In this document: one piece after another, positions 9,652-64,000 of the stretch
Layout of the letters: each line of letters begins with the position of its first letter
Position numbering within the stretch: position 1 is the stretch's first letter
NCBI GenBank assembly: GCA_947624485.1
Contig: CANQKM010000010.1
Coordinates: forward strand, 1 to 64,000
Direction of reading: 5' to 3'
From: an uncultured Clostridia bacterium
GTDB lineage: Bacteria > Bacillota > Clostridia > UBA1381
DNA length: 64,000 nucleotides
Made by a program: the position numbers and the translations under genes
The notes under the pieces: model-generated
Seen by the model: only the letters and a program-made list of their open reading frames with translations
What the model was told of the DNA's origin: nothing
The model's database searches: none

Positions 9652-11445
9652 ATGGACAGGACGGAAATTGAGGATTTTGCCGTAAAACTGAATAAGGACG
9701 ACATACTCCGCGCCGTAGGCTGCGGTGAGAGCGGCGCGGCGCGCGACATGGCGTCACGCTGTTTCGATGAGCTTAAAAATGAGCTTGCGGCTGCGGCAGA
9801 GCCGTACGCCGCGGCGGTAAAGGAAAACGACAAAATATACTGCCTGCTCACGCTCGGCGACGGTGTGAGTAAGCTCATTGACCGTCTTTTCACAGAAGGC
9901 GAGGCGGTGAAGGGACTTGTCGCGGACGCTATGGCTGACGCGTATCTTTTTGAAATTGACGCGCTGCTTACGGAACGGATAAAGCGTGAGTGCGCCGTTA
10001 TGAACGTCGGCGTGGGTAAACGCCTTACCGCACCCGACGACTTTCCGCTTTCGGAGCAGACCGTTATAATATCGAAAATCGGCACGAACCGCGTAACGGT
10101 GACGGACGCGTTTATGCTGAATCCCGTAAAAAGTATGGCTTACGCGCTGGAGCTTACCGACGACCGCGCCGTTTTCAACGCGCAGCACGACTGCTCGAAA
10201 TGCGCCGCGAAGGACTGCCCGATGCGTAAAACAGAGCACAAGGGAGAATTTTCGATTTTGTCGGGTTACTCGTACGCCCCCGAAAACACGGTCGGCTCGG
10301 CGGTATGTATAGACATCGGCACGACTACCGTTGTGTTTGAATATATAGAAAACGGCAAAGTAACCGCGTCGCACAAGGTCATAAATCCGCAGCGCAGGTT
10401 CGGTCATGACGTGATTTCGCGTATCGAAGCCGCGAACCGAGGCAGGGGCGCGGAGCTTGCGTCCGACATACGCTACGCGCTGATAAACGGTTATAACGCG
10501 GTGATGCGCGGCAAAACGCCCGACAGAGCGGTAATAGCCGCGAACACAACAATGGTGCATCTGCTCATGGAATACGACTGCGCGCCGCTCGGACAGTACC
10601 CGTTTACCGCGCGGACGGACACGGTAAAAACGACATTTGACAAAGTCACCGCGTCGCAGTGCGCGCCTGTCCCAACGCTCATATTCGGCGGCATTTCCGC
10701 GTTTGTGGGCGGCGATATTACGAGCGGACTGTATATGTGCGATTTTGATTTGTCAGACAGTGTGAACCTTTTTATCGATCTCGGCACGAACGGCGAAATG
10801 GTAATAGGAAATAAGGACAAAATGCTCGCCGCGTCAACCGCCGCCGGTCCGGCGTTTGAGGGCGGACTTATTTCGTGCGGCACGGGCAGCGTTGACGGCG
10901 CTGTATGCTCGGTGCGGCTGAATCCGCCGCGCTTTGAGACGATAGGCGGCAAGCCGCCGGTCGGTATCTGCGGCACGGGCATAATCGAGCTTGTGTCGGA
11001 AATGAGGGACTGCGGCGTTATCGACGGTACGGGTAAGCTTTGTGATAAATACTTCGCGTCGGGCTTCCCCGTGACGGACAAAATAACGTTCACGCAAAAC
11101 GATATACGACAGGTTCAGACCGCGAAAAGCGCGGTGAGAGCCGGAATAGAGTGTCTTGTGCGCGCTTACGGCGCAAATTACGACGATATAGGCGCGGTTT
11201 ATATCGCCGGCGGCTTCGGTTACGGACTGTCGGTAAAAAAGGCGTGCAATATCGGTCTGCTGCCGGCGGAGCTTGCCGATAAGGCGGTACCCGTCGGCAA
11301 CAGCTCGCTCGGCGGCTGCGTGAAAATGACCGCGCGCGCCGACGGGGAAGAGAGGATAAAACGTATACAAAACGTGTCGTCCGACCTGCCGCTTGCCTCG
11401 GACGGTGAATTTAACAAGCTTTACATTAAATATATGAATTTTTAA
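9652..11445 (+). CDS. corrinoid-protein reductive activator-like (MetH-activation-like domain plus ASKHA/DUF4445)
   Basis: 597 residues. The N-terminal part (about 1-178) resembles the activation domain of B12-dependent methionine synthase: the segment around residues 125-165, with DFPLSEQ and MLNPVKS, follows that family's pattern. A CSKCAAKDC cluster (about 180-188) could hold a metal or Fe-S centre. From about residue 215 comes an ASKHA-fold ATPase of the RACo C-terminal type, with IDIGTTTV, DLGTNGEM and GTGIIELV. Classical RACo carries an N-terminal [2Fe-2S] ferredoxin domain instead. The likely role is ATP-driven reactivation of an inactive cob(II)alamin protein, possibly a methionine synthase. 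No corrinoid protein or methyltransferase gene is in the window. It is followed after 12 nt by nfo. Confidence 0.75.
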   Translation: MDRTEIEDFAVKLNKDDILRAVGCGESGAARDMASRCFDELKNELAAAAEPYAAAVKENDKIYCLLTLGDGVSKLIDRLFTEGEAVKGLVADAMADAYLFEIDALLTERIKRECAVMNVGVGKRLTAPDDFPLSEQTVIISKIGTNRVTVTDAFMLNPVKSMAYALELTDDRAVFNAQHDCSKCAAKDCPMRKTEHKGEFSILSGYSYAPENTVGSAVCIDIGTTTVVFEYIENGKVTASHKVINPQRRFGHDVISRIEAANRGRGAELASDIRYALINGYNAVMRGKTPDRAVIAANTTMVHLLMEYDCAPLGQYPFTARTDTVKTTFDKVTASQCAPVPTLIFGGISAFVGGDITSGLYMCDFDLSDSVNLFIDLGTNGEMVIGNKDKMLAASTAAGPAFEGGLISCGTGSVDGAVCSVRLNPPRFETIGGKPPVGICGTGIIELVSEMRDCGVIDGTGKLCDKYFASGFPVTDKITFTQNDIRQVQTAKSAVRAGIECLVRAYGANYDDIGAVYIAGGFGYGLSVKKACNIGLLPAELADKAVPVGNSSLGGCVKMTARADGEERIKRIQNVSSDLPLASDGEFNKLYIKYMNF

Positions 11446-63853: not shown

Positions 63854-64000
63854 GTTGTGACTTTTGCGTGAATCTTAAAAAGCCGGATTTGCGCAATGGA
63901 CTGATACGCGATGAAACGGGAGGTTGCGGCTGAAGAGCCTTTGAAAAAGGCTTGACGGAGCCGGTTTTTCCGCGGAGCGAGTCCGATTCATGAAACCGGG
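63854..64000 (+). ncRNA. start of a structured leader or RNA, cut by the window
   Basis: After the promoter come at least 147 nt without an open frame but with several GC stems. Examples are AGCCTTT / AAGGCTT (about 63937-63954) and paired GCCGG / CCGG segments near 63890-63998. A long structured leader fits a ribosomal-protein operon or a stable RNA. The downstream part is missing, so the class cannot be named. Confidence 0.4.

Follow-up and report, generated by a model that had tools for sequence, protein, structure and literature searches.

Cobalamin-dependent methionine synthase (MetH) occasionally lapses into an inactive cob(II)alamin state. Two drives are known for the uphill conversion of cob(II)alamin to cob(I)alamin, namely methylation by S-adenosylmethionine (SAM), as in the MetH activation domain, and ATP, as in RACo and RamA, and they are usually treated separately. 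RamA carries a C-terminal [4Fe-4S] ferredoxin part. That a RACo-family (DUF4445) activator can serve MetH is already known: in the part of the mutant fitness study consulted here (Price 2018, PMC5764234), DUF4445 genes are cofit with MetH lacking the activation domain PF02965 in Desulfovibrio and Phaeobacter. The gene described below lies in the window, a stretch of 64,000 nucleotides from an uncultured Clostridia bacterium, and joins an activation-type domain to a RACo-type ATPase in one unbroken reading frame (Table 1).

Domain composition of the fusion protein

Both RACo ATPase domains scored above their Pfam cut-offs (PF14574, 212.4 versus 27 bits; PF17651, 100.1 versus 26.8 bits), in agreement with the sequence-only reading, which had called the ASKHA half RACo-type. 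Residues 218 to 574 aligned with the RACo structure 3zyy (phmmer, E 6e-54). The residues of DIGTTT, which we take to be the phosphate motif, and of DLGTN and GGF, which presumably complete the set of ASKHA nucleotide-site motifs, were invariant in 15 of 15 rows of the RACo alignment. The models for AcsV and RamA scored the fusion far below their cut-offs (NCBIfam AcsV model NF040756, 244.6 bits against 800; RamA model TIGR04270, 98.1 bits against 500). RACo_C_ter reaches residue 596 of 597, and a RamA-type C-terminal [4Fe-4S] part is not present. The usual [2Fe-2S] domain is missing as well, as had been claimed: Pfam gave no Fer2 match in the fusion at E ≤ 1, and it matched Fer2 in the relatives at loci L150, L176, L180 and L184. 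Ahead of residue 217, Pfam reported no domain in the fusion. The gene is flanked by polysaccharide-deacetylase-like and endonuclease-IV-like genes (named by eye), and an S10-Clostridia ribosomal protein leader was found at the far end of the window, positions 63902-63994.

Table 1. Coordinates of the fusion gene, its parts and the related loci of genus g2
Feature	Position	Strand	Remark
Whole gene: activation-type domain, Cys cluster and RACo ASKHA ATPase	9652..11445	+	597 aa
MetH-activation-like domain, residues 1 to ~175	9652..10176	+	fold match to 1j6r and hhalign to stand-alone proteins
Cys24, proposed fourth metal ligand	9721..9723	+	28/28 fusion rows, 6/30 stand-alone rows
RLTAPDD, residues 124-130, where stand-alone proteins have SAM-binding R-F-S-P-G-Y	10021..10041	+	2-residue deletion removes Gly-Tyr
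HDCSKCAAKDCPMR, residues 179-192, with His179, Cys181, Cys184 and Cys189; proposed metal or Fe-S site	10186..10227	+	
Raco_middle (PF17651), residues 217-366, DIGTTT at 221-226	10300..10749	+	Pfam 1.4e-28
RACo_C_ter ASKHA domain (PF14574), residues 371-596, DLGTN and GGF motifs	10762..11439	+	Pfam 7.9e-63
Domain-Fer2-RACo locus of g2	L113:1974-4055	-	Fer2 and RACo Pfam-confirmed
Domain-Fer2-RACo locus of g2	L114:1518-3629	+	
Domain-Fer2-RACo locus of g2	L115:2194-4317	-	

The front of the protein had been said to resemble the methionine synthase activation domain, with a profile search of residues 1-215 against the Met_synt_B12 family as the proposed check. PF02965 gave no direct match in these residues, even at E ≤ 1, but more sensitive methods revealed the homology. 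Residues 1-215 were modelled with AlphaFold2 (mean pLDDT 79; residues 178-215 below 50). The model matched the activation domain TM0269 of Thermotoga maritima (1j6r) with a Foldseek E of 1.4e-8, and 1j6r was also the best match in the PDB (VIA Z 17.8; 2.4 Å for 166 residues). The activation domains of Thermus, E. coli and human MetH followed with Z scores of 12.3-14.3 (E. coli 1msk, 13.1), and the first unrelated fold reached only 4.8. We also built two profiles, A1 from 14 fusion N-domains and A3 from 31 stand-alone activation ORFs, with L040 and L042 left out. Among 201 ORFs, A1 picked out those for stand-alone activation proteins in related genomes, with a best value of 5.8e-13, and it aligned with A3 in hhalign with a probability of 98.7 and an E of 4e-16. 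A3 in turn matched 1j6r at 6.7e-26 and E. coli 1msk at 9.2e-8, and A1 alone matched 1j6r weakly (0.0042). Thus, the fold match and the profile-profile comparison show a homology that PF02965 missed, and on model and profiles together the front domain is a genuine, distantly homologous MetH-activation fold below the reach of the Pfam model. The earlier description of a substrate-like domain fused to an ATP-driven activator therefore stands as regards the fusion; the term "substrate-like" does not, as the front is an activator (docking/SAM) domain.

SAM-binding motif and four-cysteine site

In E. coli MetH, the SAM contacts given in the consulted part of the source (PMC1282579) include Asp946, Glu1101, Tyr1130, Arg1134, Tyr1139 and Tyr1189. 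We compared the corresponding RxxxGY motif and the cysteines between 28 fusion rows (22 distinct sequences; L016=L073, L008=L078, L005=L075, L004=L077, L006=L074 and L014=L063 are identical) and 30 of the 36 PF02965 stand-alone loci. The stand-alone proteins read R-[FY]-S-[PA]-G-Y in 29 of 30 cases, L029 being the exception. Most fusion rows read R-L-x-A-P-x-D with two residues deleted, and Gly-Tyr is missing from all 28. Because of this loss, the front domain has probably given up the normal mode of SAM binding, and the lost motif suggests a changed energy source, ATP for SAM. The arginine of the motif (Arg124) is retained in 28 of 28 rows, as would be expected if the domain still bound SAM and the protein used both SAM methylation and ATP, the latter just speeding electron entry. 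We consider such a dual drive improbable, since Gly-Tyr is deleted in the very same rows and the GY-less domains form a branch of their own. For Tyr164 as a substitute SAM contact, we found no evidence.

The CxxCxxxxC cluster noticed in the sequence-only reading is C181-x2-C184-x4-C189. Its cysteines and Cys24 did not vary in the first alignment (14 rows), nor later in any of the 28 fusion rows. The cluster also exists outside the fusion: the same three-Cys core occurs in 21 of the 30 stand-alone activation proteins. Nine SAM-type stand-alone ORFs lack it entirely. The core is dispensable in SAM-type stand-alone proteins and invariant in the fusion.

We compared 29 SAM-type proteins that contain the core: the three that have Cys24 showed no other cysteine near the core, and 25 of the 26 without Cys24 had an extra cysteine at most 16 residues before or at most 12 residues after it. 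This either-or pattern between Cys24 and a local fourth cysteine gave a Fisher value of 0.0011 over the 29 SAM-type rows, in a test for which nine rows without the core were dropped, L174 (N-terminus missing) was scored as without Cys24, and L114 and L115 were shortened, so that the fourth cysteine of L115 was uncounted. The pattern fits a single metal site with four ligands, to which Cys24 would come close in the folded protein. Over 33 GY-less rows the pattern was absent (Fisher 0.37); there, most stand-alone proteins have neither Cys24 nor a local cysteine and a histidine before the core is common. Most SAM-type activation ORFs of the order (L020-L049) have a four-Cys motif at their end in which the position of the fourth cysteine varies, which hints at a metal centre in the ordinary MetH reactivation of anaerobes. 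The Cys region falls in the low-confidence part of the structure models, and the cluster may instead bind zinc or play a structural part.

MetH in the same genome and across the order

The window's genome (2.7 Mb, 91% complete) has one RACo and a single MetH of 803 aa (G000 C2:155383-157791), which stops at the B12 domain and has no activation domain. This is the truncation that the sequence-only reading had suggested looking for; a full MetH that includes an activation domain, which would have spoken against that reading, was not found, and PF02965 had zero matches across the genome. The gene metF immediately precedes metH with no gene between them. MetH is the only B12-binding_2 protein and the only corrinoid methyltransferase found in this genome. 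CoFeSP was not found; the sole match was sub-threshold and lay inside MetH, and CoFeSP as a substrate of the fusion was rejected with nothing beyond that match to suggest it. The fusion gene is not adjacent to metF-metH, none of 14 loci examined showed an operon link between the two, and no riboswitch was found near either at the gathering threshold in the scanned sources. Since the front is an activation domain, MetH lacks one, and MetH is the sole corrinoid methyltransferase found, a role in B12-dependent methionine synthesis, as first proposed from the sequence, is the best reading.

Across 95 genomes of the order, we called fusions by an A1 N-domain match at E < 1e-50 and stand-alone activation genes by an A3 match at E < 1e-40. 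PF02965 alone gave 36/95 stand-alone genomes and missed G007, G056, G075 and G077, so the A3 count was used. The fusion was found in 31 genomes and the stand-alone gene in 40, and the two never occurred in the same genome (0 observed, 13 expected; Fisher 2.7e-10, uncorrected for kinship). MetH was present in 87 of the 95 genomes. Among the open frames listed, none could accommodate both MetH and an activation domain; for a full-length match, the longest had 904 codons. By identity to the window's MetH, 81 of the 87 proteins were assigned to type A (at least 64%) or type B (at most 57%), short or uncertain matches being left out. The 40 type A genomes comprised 29 with the fusion, none with the stand-alone gene and 11 with neither, and the 41 type B genomes comprised none with the fusion, 39 with the stand-alone gene and two with neither. 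Hence all 29 fusion genomes with MetH carry type A, and all 39 typed stand-alone genomes carry type B. Where the region was fetched, the gene order was mostly metF-act-metH in stand-alone genomes and metF-metH in fusion genomes. The fusion genomes without a detected MetH are G031 (73% complete) and G044 (81% complete).

The 11 type A genomes with neither gene speak against a reactivase dedicated to MetH, as do the two fusion genomes without a detected MetH and the distance of the fusion gene from metF-metH. Some of the 11 have other RACo proteins. Fer2-RACo is carried by G010, G035 and G043, a RACo with the Cys cluster alone by G047, and another RACo of ~700 aa by G002, G004, G005 and G006, which is domain-Fer2-RACo in the three that were read. 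RACo was absent from the type A genomes G015 (99% complete), G016 and G030. G015 and G016 (L135, L148) have type A MetH in a whole genome without RACo or activation gene, which points to another activator or a gap.

According to the consulted part of PMC10418091, RACo/RACE proteins are frequently encoded near corrinoid methyltransferases and corrinoid proteins, and some GY-less domains in genomes of the class have genes for RACo and corrinoid methyltransferases as neighbours (L176, L184). The fusion might by this token activate another corrinoid protein, a methyltransferase or CoFeSP, with an accidental link to MetH. However, its own genome has MetH as the single B12-binding_2 protein and no CoFeSP, and in each of the 29 fusion genomes that have MetH, the fusion goes with the same MetH type; we therefore regard another target as very unlikely.

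In a tree of 34 hand-picked MetH proteins, type A formed one clade (100/99) without a stand-alone member, and all RACo-linked type A MetH fell in one clade. The switch was thus possibly a single event, and the co-segregation may reflect few events. Each system is indeed clade-bound except in genus g9, and the Fisher values ignore kinship, so the fusion and the stand-alone gene could be neutral markers of two clades with no functional exchange between them. We give this explanation little credence. Genus g9 has 16 genomes, nine with the fusion, four with the stand-alone gene and three other. The four stand-alone genomes (G034, G036, G039, G040) have type B MetH and no RACo, whereas the nine fusion genomes all have RACo, and type A MetH in all eight where MetH was found, which indicates that whole systems were swapped. 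Furthermore, type A MetH was combined with a stand-alone SAM-type activator in 0 of 40 genomes.

Relatives, proposed mechanism and comparison with known activators

The A1 search was extended to 391 genomes of the class, which also hold stand-alone domains with GY lost (RYSPGD, RYQPDD and similar). The wider GY-less branch comprises stand-alone domains, sometimes beside RACo, domain-Fer2-RACo proteins and fusions to CobA adenosyltransferase. At L176, a GY-less stand-alone domain lies two genes after Fer2-RACo, and at L184 an operon runs methyltransferase, corrinoid protein, domain, RACo, an arrangement also seen in L166-L168. RACo was near the GY-less class genes in only four of 14 stretches (L176, L180, where it is fused, L184 and L187), so neighbourhood alone is weak. 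A neighbour of ~300 aa, similar in length beside several class stand-alone domains, was rejected as a common partner: the six scanned belong to unrelated Pfam families (EamA three times, AAA_5, CobW and Lactamase_B). Activation-type domains fused to ATP:corrinoid adenosyltransferase (PF02572, E 5e-56) were seen at L164:943-2064 (-) and L165:1369-2505 (+), with the GY motif absent and the Cys core present, and frames of similar length exist in G119 and G268. ATP:corrinoid adenosyltransferase also needs Co(II) reduced to Co(I).

At L180:6056-8455 (+) in G432, one frame of 800 aa contains the activation domain, Fer2 and RACo, the latter two Pfam-confirmed; it stands beside a divergent corrinoid protein gene, and an M-box riboswitch lies just downstream. 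In genus g2 of the window's family, proteins of ~700 aa combine activation domain, Cys cluster, Fer2 and RACo in genomes with type A MetH (Table 1), and have FGPGF or IGPGF where stand-alone proteins have RFSPGY. The RACo at L151:640-1995 (-) in G047 has a bare four-Cys stretch, PCGADRSCEDCPNGYCPLR, ahead of the ATPase, with no Fer2 and no activation domain, and is a natural minimal form. In a tree of 50 hand-picked activation domains, the GY-less domains split from the SAM-type ones (89/98; inner set 99/99), and the g2 domains, whose branch is very long, grouped with the SAM type. In a tree of 35 hand-picked RACo proteins (L076 left out), the fusion RACo grouped with the Fer2-RACo of G043 (100/98) and then with that of G432 (96/95). 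The activation-domain and RACo trees are broadly concordant. The simplest history would be a domain-Cys-Fer2-RACo ancestor, with Fer2 lost in the window's line, the domain lost in G043 and both lost in G047.

These relatives bear on the nature of the four-Cys site. The domain-Fer2-RACo forms hold both Fer2 and the Cys cluster, so the cluster is not simply a substitute for Fer2, and it also occurs in SAM-type stand-alone proteins, nine of which do without it. Both points would suit a structural zinc, with ferredoxin or flavodoxin passing electrons to cobalt directly and the N-domain merely a docking arm. However, the fusion has no Fer2 and yet keeps its four cysteines invariant, and the cluster in G047 stands without Fer2 or activation domain, as if sufficient for electron entry. 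A zinc site, which differs from our best explanation in the electron path only, thus seems the less probable assignment, though one to be taken seriously.

Domain make-up, fold, motif loss, the Cys pattern, the lack of another known activator, and the mutual exclusion and co-segregation argue for an ATP-driven reactivase of MetH. We consider it likely that the fusion is a one-piece reactivase for the cell's own truncated MetH, in which the former SAM domain now serves for docking and electron entry. The activation-type N-domain, judging by its fold, would dock on the B12 domain of MetH like an ordinary activation domain, without the usual SAM binding in view of the lost Gly-Tyr. A four-ligand centre, probably Fe-S, of Cys24 and Cys181/184/189 would replace the [2Fe-2S] domain as the point of electron entry. 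ATP binding and hydrolysis in the ASKHA half would, by analogy with RACo and RamA, drive the uphill step from Co(II) to Co(I), and would stand in for the pull otherwise supplied by SAM methylation. For a broader reading, the chances seem about even: SAM-driven MetH reactivation would have been replaced by ATP in a Clostridia lineage, with the GY-less activation domain as a docking/Fe-S arm and the wider GY-less branch as a general cob(II)alamin-reducing module.

In the literature searched, with most subscription papers outside its scope, we found no description of the fusion, the lost SAM motif or the four-Cys site. Here a single polypeptide unites the SAM-type and ATP-type families and has lost the SAM motif, and in the genomes concerned no other activator of MetH is apparent. 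Clostridia seemingly without MetH reactivation could thereby still make methionine. The protein lends itself to studies of how the hydrolysis of ATP transfers an electron to B12, of the functions that the activation domain has apart from SAM binding, and of whether MetH in anaerobes receives electrons from a four-Cys centre.

Compared with RACo/RACE (AcsV NF040756; 3zyy, 4c1n), the fusion has the same middle and ASKHA domains; however, RACo/RACE begins with an N-terminal [2Fe-2S] Fer2 domain and a linker, and the fusion has neither, with the activation-type domain in front instead. The MetH activation domain (PF02965; TM0269/1j6r, E. coli 1msk) shares fold and distant sequence homology with the fusion front, whereas the latter is undetected by PF02965, has a broken RxxxGY motif and is joined to an ATPase. 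The DUF4445/RamA-like proteins of Price 2018 (PMC5764234) are likewise of the RACo family and, like the fusion, proposed to reactivate MetH without PF02965; the consulted part of that paper describes a ferredoxin domain or two DUF4445 domains in them and mentions no activation-type domain. The stand-alone SAM-type activation proteins of the metF-act-metH operons (this order; TM0269-like) have a homologous domain and, in 21 of 30, a similar Cys cluster, but they keep GY, are unfused and are paired with the other type of MetH.
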